This document shows positions 21,793 through 37,404 of a DNA stretch of 42,976 bases, one piece after another. Below the pieces are notes generated by a model that was not told the DNA's origin, ran no database searches, and saw only the letters and a list, made by a program, of their open reading frames with translations. Numbering within the stretch: the stretch's first letter is position 1; the number at the start of each line of letters is the position of its first letter. The translations under genes were made by a program, and so were the position numbers. This DNA is from a virus: the IMG/VR virus record IMGVR_UViG_3300009104_000039, positions 1 to 42,976 of that record; one strand, 5' to 3'.

Positions 21793-23634
21793 TTAGATTA
21801 TTGTTTCTGCTACCATTGTTACATTAACTGCGGTTGAATCAGTTAAATCAGTTGTTAATATTTGTTCTCTTAAAGGAGTAATATCCTGATTATTAATTCC
21901 GGGTGTTAAAGTTACTCTTATAGATCCTGTTCCATCTGGAATTGTATAAGGACTAAAATCACCTAAAACTATTTTACCCGTATCATAATCTATTGTTCCT
22001 TGATTTGTTGCACCAGAAGGAAGTGTCATAAATACATTAGGAGTAGATACTGTAGCTACACCAGTTGTTGCATCAATAGTTGCACGTGCTAATTTAATAA
22101 CTCCCGCACTATCATCAAACAAACAATATATGTTACCATCACTTGCTGTAAATGCTGTACTAGTAAGAGAACCTTTAGTTAATGGATTATTAAATTCTAA
22201 TGTATAACTAGCAGCAGTCTTTAGTACTGCAGGTGTAATTCTTAACTGATATTTAATAGCAGTTTTACTATTTCTAATAGCAGTATCAGTATTATCAATA
22301 TCTTTTGTCAATACAGAATATCTAAATTTCTGATCGAACTTTTTTAAATTAGTATTAAAATAACTATTGATATTACCAGTAATTAATGTTTTCAATTGGT
22401 CTTGACTAATCAATAAAGTTACAGGATCATAATTAACAGTTGTATCTACAATAAGATAATAAAAAATTGGATCTACAATTTCGGGTTGAATTGTTACTAC
22501 ATTTGTTCTTTTTAAAATAGTACTTTTTATTGCATCTTTAGTTGATGCTCCAAAAGTATTATTTCCTATAGGTTTAACTGCAACAAATACTTTACCATAA
22601 ACAGCAGGACTTGCTTCTTCACCACCATAAACTGTAATAGATTCTATATCAGCTCTTTCAGCAAGTAAAATTGATTTATAATCTTCTTTTGTTACTGCAC
22701 GTTTTTGTGCTTGATATAATTTCGGTGCTGTATTTCTTATAGATGTGAGTGATTCTATTGCTGATCCTCCCGATGCCACGACAGCTGTTGCTAAAGTAAA
22801 ATTAGATGAAGATAAATCCGCGACAGTTGAAACTGCAGTAAAATTACTTGCTTTATTTGAAGTGATTCCATTAGTAACAAGATATTCAATCGTAACAATA
22901 TTACCATCAGCAAGTTGTTTTCCTATAGCTCCATCACCAAAGAAAATTTCATATCTGCGATCTTCTACTTCTTGTAAAAAATAAACTTTTTGTGTTGAAG
23001 TAATTGTAGTAATATCTAAAGAGTTTCCATCAACATATGTTGCAACAGTTGTATCACTTACTGAATTTTGTACAGTAACAGTAATAGTTGAAGTATCTAC
23101 ATTATTATTAGGAATGAGAAATCTTTGTGTTTCATCAGCTAAATTAACTGTGTAGGTTTTACTTAAAAGAGATCCTTCTTTAATAGGTAAAAGAGCTACA
23201 GCATATATGTTATTAACAGGAGTAATATTAACAGCAGCTGTTGTAATATAATTAAATACTTCACCATCAACGACTGTTCTGAATTTAGTATTTTTTGCAA
23301 TAGTAATAGATGTTGGACTACCACTTGGTGTGAAAGTCATATTTAAATAAGCAGTAGGTGCTGTAACAGATGTTGGAATATAATTTAAATGTTTTGCATG
23401 AGACACAACAGATTCTCTAAGTGCCGCGGTATCTAAAAACATTTCATTAGCCATCATGTTTGCATAGTAACCCATATAATGAGTGTTGTAGGCTAGAACA
23501 TCCAAAAGAACATCCATACCACTTCCAGTAAAATCATAATCAACAAATTCACTTTGTGCAGATAAATAATTTTTTAAATTTGTTTTAATATCATCAAATT
23601 CTAAATCTGTTACTCTTATTTTATTACTGGCCAT
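21793..23634 (-). CDS. gp6: Baseplate wedge subunit gp6 (baseplate J-like)
   Basis: 613 residues, close to T4 gp6 (660). The N-terminal ~100 residues are diagnostic: LEFDDIKTNLKNYLSAQSEF, SGMDVLLDVLAYNTHYMGY, ANEMFLDTAALRESVVSHAK, LNYIPTSVTAP. The baseplate J-like middle is present (AVTKEDYKSILLAERADIES, ITVYGGEEASPAVYGKVF). In T4, gp6 dimers form the inner ring that ties wedges together around the hub. The ATG follows the gp25 stop directly, with the AGAGAGGGTAAG end of gp25 serving as ribosome site. It is co-transcribed with gp25 and the next two wedge genes. Confidence 0.92.
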   Translation of the reverse strand: MASNKIRVTDLEFDDIKTNLKNYLSAQSEFVDYDFTGSGMDVLLDVLAYNTHYMGYYANMMANEMFLDTAALRESVVSHAKHLNYIPTSVTAPTAYLNMTFTPSGSPTSITIAKNTKFRTVVDGEVFNYITTAAVNITPVNNIYAVALLPIKEGSLLSKTYTVNLADETQRFLIPNNNVDTSTITVTVQNSVSDTTVATYVDGNSLDITTITSTQKVYFLQEVEDRRYEIFFGDGAIGKQLADGNIVTIEYLVTNGITSNKASNFTAVSTVADLSSSNFTLATAVVASGGSAIESLTSIRNTAPKLYQAQKRAVTKEDYKSILLAERADIESITVYGGEEASPAVYGKVFVAVKPIGNNTFGASTKDAIKSTILKRTNVVTIQPEIVDPIFYYLIVDTTVNYDPVTLLISQDQLKTLITGNINSYFNTNLKKFDQKFRYSVLTKDIDNTDTAIRNSKTAIKYQLRITPAVLKTAASYTLEFNNPLTKGSLTSTAFTASDGNIYCLFDDSAGVIKLARATIDATTGVATVSTPNVFMTLPSGATNQGTIDYDTGKIVLGDFSPYTIPDGTGSIRVTLTPGINNQDITPLREQILTTDLTDSTAVNVTMVAETII

Positions 23635-25058: not shown

Positions 25059-26236
25059 AAAGTTATTTTTCCCAACGCTTCTTTAGATTTATAATCTAAC
25101 ATAACATGAGATGGATAAACACCACTCTGTTTATTTCTAATATTTAATTTAAAATCAAAATAATCGCTGTGAAATTCAACATCAATTCTTTTACCAGTTC
25201 CAGATTTACCTCCATAATAAACTATCGGTTGTTTGATACCATTGGCCGCAGCTCTTGTTTTTTCCTCTGTCATTTCCCACATAGTAATCTTACCACCATC
25301 ATGGCCATGAATCATCCAGTAACCAGCACCTATAGCAGTTTGTAAAAATTTCTTTATAGGACCTAAATCTACCTTTGGGGAGTCGATATGTTTTTTTATT
25401 TGATTGGGAACACCATTAAATACATGACAAAAATCTGGTACCTTTATACCAAACATTTTTAATAAAGCTTTACCTTGCTGATTGTTAATCTTATAGTTCT
25501 TTATTTCTTGTTGTGTTAGAACCTTTCCCACACCAGCATTCATAAATGTTAAAGTACCACCAAATTTAAGACTTAAATAAACATGCTTTTTCCCATCTTT
25601 TCCAAGACGCAATGTTATATCAGTTAATTTTTGTCCATGTTGTAAAGGATCCTTAGGAGCAATATGTAAGTCGGTAATTGAATTTCCAGTTAATGGCCTT
25701 GGTTGATTTAAACCACCCATTAGTTCAGATTTTAATGCAGGTTGTTTATATTTTTTTTCTACTTTTTCAAGTAATGTCATTACTTGTGAATCATATTTTC
25801 CTTTACATATTTTACCTACAATACATTCTTCTAATCTATTTTGTAATTCTTCTTCAAACAGATTTCCTTTATTAATTTTTTTTCCACCAGCACCTGGCAT
25901 TCCACCAAATTCTTCTGTCTTAGTGATTTCATTAATTTTTACAATTTGTTCTTTTGCTTTACCCCATGTTCCTACAAGCCATAGTTTAGTCCCTGCTGGA
26001 GCATTCGTTAAATTTTCTATTAAGATTTCAGCACTTTTTTTATTTTGTTGGGCATTACCTGTTCTTTTTTCATATTCTACAGGTTCATTAGGATATTGAA
26101 GTTCATATCCAGTACAATCTAATCTTCCCTTATCGGTATGAAAAGTACATGCTTTATTATTGAGATGAAAAACTTTTTCAGCAAATGTTTTGATATTATC
26201 ACGTTTTTTTAGTTTTGTAATATCAAGATTAGCCAT
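25055..26236 (-). CDS. Putative nuclease of PD-(D/E)XK type, late-expressed
   Basis: 393 residues. A possible restriction-like core is visible: E128 in a helix (GNLFEEELQNRLEECI), D206 in TDITLRL, then S222-x-K224 in KKHVYLSLKFGGTL. The D...SxK spacing (D206 to S222) resembles the variant seen in Cfr10I/NgoMIV-type enzymes. The C-terminal part (GAGYWMIHGHDGGKITMWEM, then RIDVEFHSDYFDFKLNIRNK) could bind DNA. It sits in a three-gene late unit with a 75-residue protein upstream and the ART-like protein downstream, away from structural genes. The nuclease call is by motif only; alternatives are a virion or host-modifying protein. Confidence 0.5.
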   Translation of the reverse strand: MANLDITKLKKRDNIKTFAEKVFHLNNKACTFHTDKGRLDCTGYELQYPNEPVEYEKRTGNAQQNKKSAEILIENLTNAPAGTKLWLVGTWGKAKEQIVKINEITKTEEFGGMPGAGGKKINKGNLFEEELQNRLEECIVGKICKGKYDSQVMTLLEKVEKKYKQPALKSELMGGLNQPRPLTGNSITDLHIAPKDPLQHGQKLTDITLRLGKDGKKHVYLSLKFGGTLTFMNAGVGKVLTQQEIKNYKINNQQGKALLKMFGIKVPDFCHVFNGVPNQIKKHIDSPKVDLGPIKKFLQTAIGAGYWMIHGHDGGKITMWEMTEEKTRAAANGIKQPIVYYGGKSGTGKRIDVEFHSDYFDFKLNIRNKQSGVYPSHVMLDYKSKEALGKITL

Positions 26237-26241
26237 CTAAT

Positions 26242-26469
26242 TTACTCCACTCTAACCCATTTCATATCTTTAGCATATTTAATAGCATCCTGATATTCTT
26301 TTTCATTATTAAAAATAGTAAATTCATCATGTGCTGTAGTATATGCAAGAACTTGTTTAGCTTTCATTCGTTTTTTATGCTTCAAGGCATCACGTGCTAT
26401 CTTACCTTTTCCAATATCCTTCCAAGTTTTGGTCTTGGCCTCTGTAAATTCCTTATATGTTTTTTGCAT
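26242..26469 (-). CDS. Small basic protein heading the late nuclease/ART-like cassette
   Basis: 75 residues, Lys-rich and mostly helical (KTYKEFTEAKTKTWKDIGKG, then KIARDALKHKKRMKAKQVLA), ending NEKEYQDAIKYAKDMKWVRV. There is no signal or membrane segment. It is first in the unit driven by the late box at 26507-26514 and ends 5 nt before the putative nuclease. Co-expression suggests a partner or inhibitor of the nuclease, which is inference. The family is not recognised. Confidence 0.6.
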   Translation of the reverse strand: MQKTYKEFTEAKTKTWKDIGKGKIARDALKHKKRMKAKQVLAYTTAHDEFTIFNNEKEYQDAIKYAKDMKWVRVE

Positions 26470-26506
26470 TTTAGCGAAATTCCTTTCATTTTAAGAGCAT
26501 TTATCA

Positions 26507-26514
26507 TATTTATA
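26507..26514 (-). promoter_or_regulatory. T4-type late promoter box of the nuclease/ART-like cassette
   Basis: TATAAATA on the minus strand lies 37 nt before the ATG at 26469. A separate minus-strand TATAAT at 26528-26533, preceded 8 bp upstream by a TGTAAGT motif, could be an additional early promoter for the same unit. Confidence 0.62.
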
Positions 26515-26537
26515 ACACTTATAACCCATTATAAACA

Positions 26538-26628
26538 AAGGACTTACAGATTTAGGGGTCTGTAAGTGTCCATTTTTAAAGGTCTTGGTCGATTGTTTGT
26601 AAGTCCTTATATATCAATAACTTACAGA
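26538..26628. repeat. Four ACTTACA/TGTAAGT sites between divergent promoters
   Basis: The 7-mer ACTTACA occurs at 26542-26548 and 26620-26626, and its complement TGTAAGT at 26561-26567 and 26598-26604. Sites 1 and 2 form a 9-bp inverted repeat (ACTTACAGA / TCTGTAAGT, 8-nt gap). Sites 1 and 3 form an 11-bp inverted repeat (AAGGACTTACA / TGTAAGTCCTT). The array lies between a leftward late promoter and a rightward sigma70 promoter, the layout expected of an operator or activator array. No gene is visible between 26515 and 26713. Confidence 0.6.
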
Positions 26629-26639
26629 GCAAAATAAAT

Positions 26640-26668
26640 TTGACATTTAAGGCATATTTCTATATAAT
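26640..26668 (+). promoter_or_regulatory. Perfect sigma70-type early promoter
   Basis: TTGACA at 26640-26645 and TATAAT at 26663-26668 are separated by exactly 17 bp. Both hexamers match the bacterial consensus fully. Transcription should start near 26675 and feed the whole plus-strand operon up to 29732. The first suitable ATG with a ribosome site is then at 26714. Confidence 0.85.
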
Positions 26669-26713
26669 AGTAGTATGAAATTAAGAAATCAACAATTTAA
26701 TAAGGATTCAAAA

Positions 26714-26968
26714 ATGAATTTAACTGAGAAAGAAATTAAGAAATTGAAAAAAGAAGGAAAATGGACTAAATGTAAACCCCAAAAGAAGCGAATTAAATCT
26801 GTTATCAGTTCATCCGCTTCTATGCATCAGAAAGGTTCTTTTGGATGGTCCTCTCCAATGAATAAAAATGGAGTATCATCAATATACTTTTCTGAAACAA
26901 ACCGTAAACCACGAAACGGTGGCGAGTCTAAATCAAATGGCAAACTTTCTGAAAATCGAGCGTGGTAA
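26714..26968 (+). CDS. First early-operon protein, small and basic, unknown
   Basis: 84 residues from the ATG at 26714, chosen because AAGGA sits 7 nt upstream. An in-frame ATG at 26675 coincides with the predicted transcription start and would be leaderless. The protein begins MNLTEKEIKKLKKEGKWTKC, then is rich in Lys, Ser and Asn (KPQKKRIKSVISSSASMHQK, ETNRKPRNGGESKSNG) and looks largely disordered after the first helix. Early expression and basic character would fit a host-takeover or nucleic-acid-binding role, but there is no recognisable family. Confidence 0.6.
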   Translation: MNLTEKEIKKLKKEGKWTKCKPQKKRIKSVISSSASMHQKGSFGWSSPMNKNGVSSIYFSETNRKPRNGGESKSNGKLSENRAW

Positions 26969-26970
26969 AA

Positions 26971-27051
26971 ATGACTATTAAAGAAATTTTAACAGATATA
27001 TTGCTTTTCAGTTTACTTGGATTATTAATTATTTTGATGTTGTGTTTATAA
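26971..27051 (+). CDS. 26-residue single-span membrane peptide
   Basis: The ATG comes 2 nt after the previous stop. The peptide MTIKEILTDILLFSLLGLLI plus ILMLCL is almost entirely one hydrophobic helix after an acidic-basic head. There is no clear ribosome site of its own, so it would rely on coupling with the gene before it. Real small membrane peptides are common in such phage operons, but at this length chance cannot be excluded. Confidence 0.4.
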   Translation: MTIKEILTDILLFSLLGLLIILMLCL

Positions 27052-31893: not shown

Positions 31894-31988
31894 CAAACAC
31901 ACCCCTTTCCAATTTCCCCACTACATTCTCCAACCCATTCTGACATTATCCAACACTTCGTAACACTCTGTAACCCCTTATGAATCAT
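31893..31988 (-). CDS. 31-residue peptide in the micro-gene array
   Basis: The ATG overlaps the stop of the 42-residue gene (ATGA), and the stop overlaps the next ATG (TGATG). The peptide is MIHKGLQSVTKCWIMSEWVG plus ECSGEIGKGCV, with three Cys. There is no strong site; it depends on coupling. It may simply be an open stretch that keeps ribosomes moving. Confidence 0.35.
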   Translation of the reverse strand: MIHKGLQSVTKCWIMSEWVGECSGEIGKGCV

Positions 31989-32113
31989 GTACATACACCA
32001 CAGGCACACATTAACATCAATAAACCCATCATAAACGCTCCTACACACAACATTACAGCCATCCACCACCATTTCTCTCTCATGTTAGCTTTGTGTTCTT
32101 CCCAATCGTTCAT
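31985..32113 (-). CDS. 42-residue membrane protein in the micro-gene array
   Basis: MNDWEEHKANMREKWWWMAV begins a charged head with three consecutive Trp at the membrane edge. One hydrophobic helix follows (MLCVGAFMMGLLMLMCACG), ending with three Cys near the C-terminus. It starts 2 nt after the previous gene ends. The Trp-flanked single span is convincing as a real membrane peptide. A lysis or membrane-modifying role is possible, not shown. Confidence 0.55.
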   Translation of the reverse strand: MNDWEEHKANMREKWWWMAVMLCVGAFMMGLLMLMCACGVCT

Positions 32114-35078: not shown

Positions 35079-35954
35079 TTAGATTTCATCTCCGAACTCA
35101 TCAAATACTATTTCATCATCTCCATCTTCATCAAATAAAGTTGATGAAATAAAATCACCTGCTTCATCAAGAGACTCTGATATTCCATTTGCAATATCAT
35201 CTATTAAACTTTGTTTCTCTCTTACTATCATTTCTCCTGTTGAAGTAACCCTAATAGCAGCACCTAATCCACCACCTGAAGCTACGATATTAGTTTGTAA
35301 CAGACTTCTTGCTTCACCCAAATTTGTAGGTAATATAGATGTGATACCTGTTAATGGATCTGAAACAAAACTACTAACTGAACTAAATGATAAATTTCCT
35401 CTTGTAACATTTGAAAAATTACCTAGATTAAATGAAGCTAACTGTGATGTATTCAATCCAAATACAGTTTGTGGAGCAGCGAAACTAAACACTCCTAAAT
35501 TAGGTGAAAAATTAGCTAAAGCTCTTAAATTACCTGAGGCATCTTTAACAACATTAGGTATACCAAAATCTACAAAATTACAAGGATCAAATGTACCACT
35601 AAAGCCAAGTGCTGAATTGGCCAGATTAGTTAAATCAATATTTGCATAACCTGCTAGTCCTGTTATATCTCCAAAATCTTCTAATATTCCTGTAAGAGTA
35701 CCAACACCTGCATTAACAAAATTAGAAAATTGATCTCTTAAACCCGTTAAAGTAGAACCCAAAGGAATTGCAGGTAAAACAAAATTCATCAATCCCTGTA
35801 TTGATGTTAGCTGTGGAATTAATTGAGCAGCGGTTGCCGCGATTCCAACAATAGGAACCCCTGTCAATCCAGCAAGAGCCCTAAAAGCTGTTGCACTTGC
35901 TTGAAATTGTACACCTAAATTACTTACATTTACACTTATACCACAACTTGCCAT
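35079..35954 (-). CDS. Unknown hydrophobic virion protein of the hub operon (291 aa)
   Basis: It begins MASCGISVNVSNLGVQFQAS and has long weakly hydrophobic stretches (GLTGVPIVGIAATAAQLIPQ, MNFVLPAIPLGSTLTGL, NFVNAGVGTLTGILEDFG), then Asn/Phe-rich segments (ANFSPNLGVFSFAAPQTVFG). The C-terminus is acidic (DEDGDDEIVFDEFGDEI). The hydrophobic parts could contact membrane during injection. It lies 10 nt after the gp5 gene end. No family is recognised; a virion component is inferred from the operon. Confidence 0.58.
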   Translation of the reverse strand: MASCGISVNVSNLGVQFQASATAFRALAGLTGVPIVGIAATAAQLIPQLTSIQGLMNFVLPAIPLGSTLTGLRDQFSNFVNAGVGTLTGILEDFGDITGLAGYANIDLTNLANSALGFSGTFDPCNFVDFGIPNVVKDASGNLRALANFSPNLGVFSFAAPQTVFGLNTSQLASFNLGNFSNVTRGNLSFSSVSSFVSDPLTGITSILPTNLGEARSLLQTNIVASGGGLGAAIRVTSTGEMIVREKQSLIDDIANGISESLDEAGDFISSTLFDEDGDDEIVFDEFGDEI

Positions 35955-35964
35955 ATCGTAATCC

Positions 35965-37404
35965 TTAGTTCAAAAGTATTAACGGCGCTCTTACTGAGAA
36001 TATACCGCCTACTAAATGAGATTCAGCTAAACCTGTAACAAAAGTCGATGCAAGAGTAACATTTAAATTATATGTACTCTGTGATGTTTGTATCATAGGA
36101 CCTGTAGAATACGCCTGCCAAGTTAAACCGGCATACTGATTGATAATACCTGCCGTGGCGAGACTCAAAGTTCCCAATGAATTTATGTCCATTGTTGTAG
36201 CTGCAAAATACCTAGAACCTAAAGTACTCGCTTGAGTAATATCGGCTAAAGAATAAAGATCATAACTACCCGTAACAATAGTTGTGTCCGTACCACTAAT
36301 TTTTATTTCTTCATTTCCACCTATTGTCAAGAAATCATTTGAACCAACAGATAAAGAATGTGAACCATTAACAACTTCCGTACTATCTGTTCCAACTGAT
36401 TTAACATCATTACCAGCAATCTTTGTTCTCATATCACCATGAACATTTAAATGGTAGTTACCCAAAACTTCATGCACCATTGTTCCTTGTACTTGTAATC
36501 TACAATCACCCATTATAGTTACTTCACAATCACCATTAACAAGTACGCGTTTTTCCTTAGCTACAATCTCGTAATCACTACCAACAACCTTAACAACTTT
36601 TGATCCATCTGGTTGTACTTCTTCAAATGTTCCAGCTTTATGATACCTATGTAATCTCTCTGCACCCGGTGTATCATCCCATTCTTCTACATGACCTGAC
36701 TCAGATTGTCTAACATGATTGTAAGGATATTTTGAAGAAGTTTTACCATAAGGTTCTCCGTCAGGTAATTTACCCGGAGTTAAATACTCAGTTGCACTAT
36801 CTTTTGTTCCCCCATATCTTGGATTAGGTTCATTCCAATAATCAAAATCATAATAATCTCCTTCATTAGCAATAATCAGACTTAGTGCATCTGTACCTTG
36901 TAAATCACCTGCTACAGCTTTAGGTACACCTGTTTGTCTAGTCTTTCTTTTCCATATTAAAGATGCATGATTCTCACCATTCTTTGAACCAACTGGCATT
37001 TTTCCTATACCTCTTGCCAGTCTATTTGTATCTGGTTCATTAAGATGAGTTTGTAGAGGATACAATCCAACAGGATCATTAAACCCTAATTTTGGATCAG
37101 CTGGTTCTTGTGGTCTACCTCCAAAGGTTCCTATAAAAACAGGTTCTTGTGCGTCTTTACCATCCCTAAAAAATCCAAAACACCAAGTACCTCGAACAGG
37201 ACCTATAGGAGTCGTACCAACACCACTCATAGCAGCTGAAGTAATAGGTTGCATAGGTGTAGCCCATGGAAGATCAGCTGTAGGAATAAGTTTTTTATCG
37301 TCTGTATGATAACCGACAATTCTTACTCTACAACGACCCAACTTTAATGGATCATCACGATCTTCAACAACACCTTGCCACCAAACAAATTCACCATATA
37401 TCAT
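35965..37404 (-). CDS. gp5: gp5-like central spike protein without a lysozyme domain
   Basis: 479 residues, versus 575 for T4 gp5. Residues ~1-95 are the OB-fold (FVWWQGVVEDRDDPLKLGRC, RVRIVGYHTD, WCFGFFRDGKDAQEPVFIGT). Residues ~100-235 are a linker where T4 has its lysozyme; no lysozyme motif is visible. Residues ~235-370 form the triple-stranded beta-helix (GHVEEWDDTPGAERLHRYHK, then VNGDCEVTIMGDCRLQVQG, NYHLNVHGDMRTKIAGN). It trimerises to puncture the outer membrane under the PAAR tip. Its start overlaps the stop of the hub gene before it by 4 nt. Confidence 0.87.
   Translation of the reverse strand: MIYGEFVWWQGVVEDRDDPLKLGRCRVRIVGYHTDDKKLIPTADLPWATPMQPITSAAMSGVGTTPIGPVRGTWCFGFFRDGKDAQEPVFIGTFGGRPQEPADPKLGFNDPVGLYPLQTHLNEPDTNRLARGIGKMPVGSKNGENHASLIWKRKTRQTGVPKAVAGDLQGTDALSLIIANEGDYYDFDYWNEPNPRYGGTKDSATEYLTPGKLPDGEPYGKTSSKYPYNHVRQSESGHVEEWDDTPGAERLHRYHKAGTFEEVQPDGSKVVKVVGSDYEIVAKEKRVLVNGDCEVTIMGDCRLQVQGTMVHEVLGNYHLNVHGDMRTKIAGNDVKSVGTDSTEVVNGSHSLSVGSNDFLTIGGNEEIKISGTDTTIVTGSYDLYSLADITQASTLGSRYFAATTMDINSLGTLSLATAGIINQYAGLTWQAYSTGPMIQTSQSTYNLNVTLASTFVTGLAESHLVGGIFSVRAPLILLN

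Follow-up and report, generated by a model that had tools for sequence, protein, structure and literature searches.

A 27-bp dyad upstream of early promoters in marine T4-like phages and a large-phage lineage, a probable operator in repeated promoter cassettes

In a marine T4-like phage, positions 26521-26625 contain three copies of a 27-bp dyad, which lie before a strong early sigma70 promoter and would act together as a three-dyad operator. The same dyad recurs in front of early promoters of related T4-like phages and of a second lineage of large phages. Most probably, these dyads are operators for a DNA-binding regulator of early promoters, set in cassettes that resemble the PeSLs of T4-type phages and are nevertheless distinct from them. 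What was computed are the dyads, their conservation and geometry, the helical phasing of the class with 53-bp spacing, the absence of arm covariation and the repetition of the cassettes.

The whole stretch of DNA analysed, here called the window, spans an IMG/VR virus record of 42,976 bp with 34.7% GC. It carries T4-type late genes, among them gp6 at 21793-23634 (phrog_219, 1.7e-160), and a gp5-type hub is encoded at 35965-37404. The closest annotated relatives are Kyanoviridae, namely the Pelagibacter phages HTVC008M and Mosig and the Methylophilales phage Melnitz, with gp6 identity of just 39-41%; the window is a piece of an uncultured marine T4-like phage genome. Leftward late genes begin at 26469 and small rightward early genes at 26714. 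The first leftward gene below the late box (26242-26469, minus strand, 75 aa) is kept across the clade. The first early gene (26714-26968, plus strand, 84 aa) begins with ATG at 26714, with AAGGA upstream; its product has no family match, and a stretch in L430 is 94% identical. This ATG is a likelier start than the one at 26675, which falls on the expected transcription start of the early promoter, and gene callers may therefore begin the gene 13 codons early. A search of 26200-27000 against Rfam gave no match above gathering scores. Elsewhere in the window, four copies each of TCATCAA and TGATGAA are packed into about 70 bp (35098-35170), close to where the leftward gene 35079-35954 ends; they may be a coding repeat.

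The dyad array and the promoters on its two sides

The first-pass annotation had described this region as an array of four copies of a 7-bp motif, ACTTACA or its complement TGTAAGT, lying between a leftward late box and a rightward sigma70 promoter. These elements, together with a leftward TATAAT, were all found where it had placed them. The 7-mers start at 26542, 26561, 26598 and 26620, in both orientations, and the early promoter occupies 26640-26668 on the plus strand (TTGACA at 26640-26645, 17 bp, TATAAT at 26663-26668; 12/12). The cluster is real and unusual. It appeared in none of 300 second-order Markov shuffles of the window, and 13 of the 300 had four copies of some 7-mer within 85 bp; across the window as a whole the 7-mer is not enriched (13 found, 9.3 expected). 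The true unit, however, is a dyad of 27 bp and not a motif of 7 bp.

Comparison of relatives exposed a longer inverted repeat, after which IMG/VR was scanned for the pattern AAGGASTTACA before a sigma70 promoter. The element is STAASYCCTT-N7-AAGGRSTTAS, two inverted 10-bp arms around a 7-bp spacer, and the TAA and TT in each arm are almost invariant. When left arms were sought beside 470 right arms, the spacer was 7 bp in 137 cases, against 0-7 cases for any other spacer between 0 and 30 bp.

In the window, dyad 1 (ATAACCCATT-ATAAACA-AAGGACTTAC, 26521-26547) scores 17/20 and lies 92 bp before the -35 box. Dyad 2 (GTAAGTGTCC-ATTTTTA-AAGGTCTTGG, 26562-26588) is degenerate (14/20) and lies 51 bp before it; strong versions occupy this position in the relatives L043 and L164 (52 bp from -35). 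Dyad 3 (GTAAGTCCTT-ATATATC-AATAACTTAC, 26599-26625) scores 18/20 and is placed 14 bp before -35. Two dyads scoring 17/20 or more thus stand within 105 bp, 78 bp apart; the expectation for all of the window is 0.00. Of the four 7-mers, one falls in the right arm of dyad 1, one in the left arm of dyad 2 and one in each arm of dyad 3: dyad 1 contains most of the ACTTACA at 26542-26548, and dyad 3 most of the TGTAAGT at 26598-26604 and of the ACTTACA at 26620-26626. The right arm of dyad 1 and the left arm of dyad 2 face each other and form a terminator-like stem-loop on the plus strand (26540-26571); its stem measures about 13 bp (-13.6 kcal/mol, z -3.0), and the sequence after it is ATTTTT. A weak fourth dyad at 31970-31996 (16/20), without clear promoter, is probably a chance match, since 0.15 such sites are expected in the window.

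On the leftward side, the T4-type late box TATTTATA (leftward TATAAATA) is located at 26507-26514 on the minus strand and is preceded by AAGTGT. As in T4-type late promoters, TATAAATA stands at -10, and it is conserved in relatives, being kept in the divergent regions of L019, L031, L032, L040, L043 and L090. The 177 occurrences of TATAAATA in the clade show a tendency to AAAASTNT before the box (AAAASTNT-TATAAATA), for example AAAACTTT or AAGTGT, and the two together are possibly an extended late promoter. The box is 6 bp from dyad 1, and a protein bound there would cover the region just upstream of the late promoter's -10 box. Because dyad 1 adjoins the leftward late promoter, the same protein could, judging from position, also affect late transcription. 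This position is what would tie early to late control in the switch that the first-pass annotation had suggested.

The annotation had further likened the leftward TATAAT (26528-26533), with TGTAAGT upstream of it, to a MotA-dependent middle promoter of T4. The likeness consists in a site upstream of a -10 box. In T4 middle promoters, however, the MotA box lies about 12-13 bp upstream of the -10 box, unlike the 8-bp gap seen here. We rejected this candidate: TGTAAGT is half of a dyad, and TATAAT is the arm end and spacer of dyad 1. Nor is this -10 box inside the dyad conserved, as the equivalent dyads of L032 (CATTGTAAAATAAAG), L090 and L011 lack TATAAT and that of L031 has it.

Dyad placement in T4-like relatives and in large phages

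Next, we compared the position of dyads relative to the early promoter. In two T4-like relatives (L435 and L439) dyad ends are 15, 52 and 91 bp from the -35 box, compared with 14, 51 (weak) and 92 bp in the window, and six others (L043, L164, L175, L431, L442 and L446) have them at 15 and 52 bp. Another T4-like set has dyad ends at 25 and 62 bp, and a further one at 38-40 and 77-79 bp; several of the T4-like double dyads come from a scan for 37-bp pairs in which a promoter was not required. A single dyad 31 bp from -35 was found in L031, L032, L043, L090, L164 and L175, in most cases with an intrinsic-terminator-like stretch between dyad and promoter. The pooled T4-like distances have no common helical phase and fall into fixed classes only (14-15, 25, 31 and 38-41 bp); this, like the weakness of dyad 2 in the window, counts against the operator reading. 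The first-pass annotation had taken absence or lack of placement in relatives as refuting its proposal; the sites are neither absent from relatives nor unplaced in them, the dyad positions being conserved.

The second group of carriers comprises contigs without a match to T4-type gp6, several of them about 190-230 kb long, whose dyads come in pairs 53 bp apart. Those that were compared with each other have late genes in common and form one lineage. Pairs number 25 in G001 (229 kb), 17 in G023 (230 kb), 15 in G025 (200 kb), 17 in G026 (187 kb), 14 in G005, 11 in G002 and 6 in G027, and their spacing in all these contigs is exactly 53 bp, bar a few stray matches. The pairs of the four near-complete genomes (187-230 kb) are confined to one stretch of 17-22 kb, and the 53-bp pairs occupy one early-gene array per large phage. 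Scanning IMG/VR for the 53-bp double yielded at least 120 stretches, whereas the reversed pattern yielded 5; a reversed-pattern control on 22 records gave no matches.

Among the matches listed, there are 212 distinct 53-bp doubles. A strong sigma70 promoter not more than 160 bp away is present on one side of 156 of them and on both sides of none. The distance between double and -35 box peaks, again among the matches listed, at 19, 29-30, 40 and 51-52 bp, that is, one helical turn apart, and the same distance steps recur in different contigs. With locus repeats collapsed (n=151 among the matches listed), the best period is 11-11.25 bp (p ~1e-16), and a set gathered earlier (n=63) gave a period of 10.25 bp (p ~2e-8), both p-values being nominal because related promoters are not independent. 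Jittered distances reached the observed 10.25-bp value in none of 10,000 trials. Such helical phasing is expected if a protein on the DNA has to face RNA polymerase or a second bound protein, and it is not expected of a recombination site or a terminator. In the larger set the period deviates from exactly 10.5 bp, being best at 11-11.25 bp, and this counts against the operator reading.

Annotated phages were also inspected. In HTVC008M, Mosig, Melnitz-3, Syn1, S-RIM44, SynMITS9220M01, Syn9 and P-SSM2 the dyad does not exceed the reversed-pattern control, and the same applies to two uncultured phage records. T4 (NC_000866) is at chance level, with one match at three mismatches and three matches of the reversed control. 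Blastn comparison of array and cassette DNA with annotated phages returned chance-level matches only, and neither the sequence nor a description of the dyad was found in the searchable literature.

Dyads were found in bacterial bins as well. Contigs of a Planctomycetaceae bin (L220, G013:C596) and a Micavibrio bin (L216, G012:C4) carry phage-like promoters and dyads paired at 52-53 bp; these contigs may be phage DNA, because the clustered dyads of each bin all lie in that one short contig. In Treponema-labelled bins (GTDB loci L217, L223, L224, L232, L240, L244, L245, L248, L249 and L252), perfect dyads occur singly, one to a contig, and form no array.

The probable reader of the half-sites

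The fraction of complementary pairs at each arm position is about equal to or below the expectation for independent arms, and arm pairs of 245 double sites gave z values from -4.7 to +0.5 against shuffles. Because the half-sites vary independently, there is no sign of selection for arm pairing, and this lack of covariation makes a protein reading each half-site likelier than a hairpin. We rejected the idea that the dyad works mainly as an RNA hairpin, since arm pairs are no more complementary than arms drawn independently. Self-complementarity in the 53-bp doubles is confined to their GC-rich linker (z 4.6), and this counts against the operator reading, as a plain double operator does not require a self-complementary linker.

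A dimeric DNA-binding regulator, probably encoded by the phage, would bind the dyads cooperatively and, from its upstream position, would either activate the early promoter or silence it, in a manner that depends on the helix face. We infer that a protein binds, that it regulates the early promoter and that it is of phage origin. The near-consensus promoters fit a need for repression, and the phased upstream position fits activation. The regulator-binding array proposed in the first-pass annotation is supported, by inference, by the position kept in relatives, the promoter phasing in the large-phage lineage and the arms devoid of covariation; the protein itself was not found.

Protein families common to T4-like and large-phage carriers did not reveal the regulator, a point against the operator reading. 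They comprise dCMP deaminase, dNMP kinase, dUTPase, Clp protease, a zinc-ribbon protein and structural proteins. An HTH-like protein of about 94 aa shows strong conservation among the large phages with dyads (L268, at about 43.9-44.3 kb of G001), is also present in the 2-kb dyad locus L139, and matches Sigma70_r4_2 with 20.7 bits, below the Pfam cut-off. It is possibly the regulator of the large-phage lineage. It was not found in the T4-like clade, and we therefore do not claim it as the regulator. G001, G023, G025, G026 and G027 also encode a RuvB-like or clamp-loader-like ATPase (in G001, Pfam RuvB_N 9e-45 and PHROG clamp loader 2e-19); as a candidate it was rejected, being also clamp-loader-like and having weak T4-like matches.

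The dyads might instead be sites of a host regulator, exploited by unrelated phages at the start of infection. The same dyad does occur in phages with little else in common, promoters active right after injection rely mainly on host factors, and a common phage regulator was not found. However, the hosts of the two lineages probably differ, and the clustered sites in bacterial bins sit in single short viral-looking contigs. To our knowledge, the dyad matches no host regulator site. We consider this explanation unlikely, although it fares best among the alternatives.

Cassettes and known systems

In both lineages, the dyad element and the promoter are repeated before successive early genes. Ends of BLAST alignments between arrays fall on the elements: the bin from -10 to 0 holds 214 ends against a background of about 30 (up to about 7 times the neighbouring bins). 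As every alignment is extended by the conserved element, these junctions do not tell exchange at specific sites from homologous exchange. As alignment ends are concentrated at its edges, the element marks module boundaries, and the cassettes appear to be the units along which early regions are shuffled.

These boundaries raise the question of whether the dyads are site-specific recombination sites of an integron-like gene-cassette system. Their inverted arms and constant 7-bp spacer resemble the core sites of tyrosine recombinases, and the doubles with their GC-rich centre resemble attC. Exact 53-bp doubles bound tandem cassettes of 0.5-1.7 kb, spacers are related inside each contig and differ from one contig to the next, array homology ends at element edges, and the linker centre is self-complementary. 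The array thus shares paired inverted core sites, a central hairpin and tandem cassettes with the integron attC sites and CALINs described in phages (PMC9892861), from which it differs in that no integrase gene was found and the cassettes have their own phased promoters. The tyrosine recombinase domain PF00589 was detected in none of the 18 records searched, which include one of 229 kb, and in every one of the 14 control genomes; an integrase may be supplied in trans by the host. The consensus arm, STAASYCCTT, does not contain the attC R box (RYYYAAC/GTTRRRY), and the GTTRRRY core is lacking from the sites. Moreover, recombination sites do not need phased, one-sided promoter distances, and the arms of the two halves pair no better than shuffled ones. 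This explanation is slightly less probable still than a host regulator. Since no tyrosine recombinase was found in these 18 records, a regulated cassette that recombines in the ordinary way is preferred over a site-specific system.

A regulated operator has also to be weighed against an ordinary PeSL, in which the repeats would be a terminator upstream of an early promoter plus homology for recombination, without any specific regulator. In T4-type phages, PeSLs are reported to mark the boundaries of module exchange (Arbiol 2010, Comeau 2014, cited through PMC4503421 and PMC3950731). Compared with PeSLs, our cassettes are alike in being a repeated early-promoter unit with an upstream inverted repeat, placed before small early genes and at module boundaries; they differ in having a 10+7+10 dyad that is conserved in sequence, lacks arm covariation and comes in sets of two or three, with fixed spacings both among the dyads and to the promoter. 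The early sigma70 promoter is present (26640-26668, 12/12), and dyad-promoter cassettes occur once in the 43-kb fragment and at least twice in L031, L043, L090, L164 and L175. The stretch 26540-26571 folds like a terminator with a T run, an intrinsic terminator stands between dyad and promoter in several relatives, and cassettes recur before early genes and mark breaks of homology. The terminator-like hairpin is 68 bp from -35 in the window and adjoins the promoter in L031, L032, L090 and L164. On the other hand, dyad and terminator are separate in relatives. The arms do not covary, and the sequence is kept in unrelated phages and absent from T4, so that the element is not the one of T4 in sequence. 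An ordinary PeSL is therefore improbable. Least probable of all is an undescribed cassette system of virulent phages, with promoter-bearing early genes captured, lost or reordered at paired dyads by some unnamed recombinase or one of the host, the arrays reaching about 25 cassettes, and of which the T4-like window would be a reduced version.

SAS elements are asymmetric and adjoin start codons, and they differ from the dyad in sequence and geometry. In cluster K mycobacteriophages, SAS/ESAS form a repeated upstream element, partly an inverted repeat, at many genes (PMC3203893); with the dyad they have in common that an upstream element is repeated phage-wide. The haloarchaeal virus HGTV-1 has a TATA-box and an inverted repeat before most genes of one arm, a motif that its authors compared with PeSLs (PMC3950731). 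Likened by description, it shares with the dyad cassettes the combination of promoter and inverted repeat, the HGTV-1 promoter being archaeal.

Taken by its sequence features, the dyad array seems to belong with the regulated, repeated early-promoter cassettes of large phages. A short rule (a 27-bp dyad, pairs at 37/39 or 53 bp and a fixed or phased distance to -35) would predict many early promoters and would mark early-gene arrays in metagenomes, both of the abundant uncultured marine T4-like phages and of phages of about 230 kb. The dyad sequence could also serve as bait for finding the regulator. The presence of the same dyad in lineages otherwise little alike points to a regulator family or a host target that they share, or to promoter cassettes being exchanged between them.
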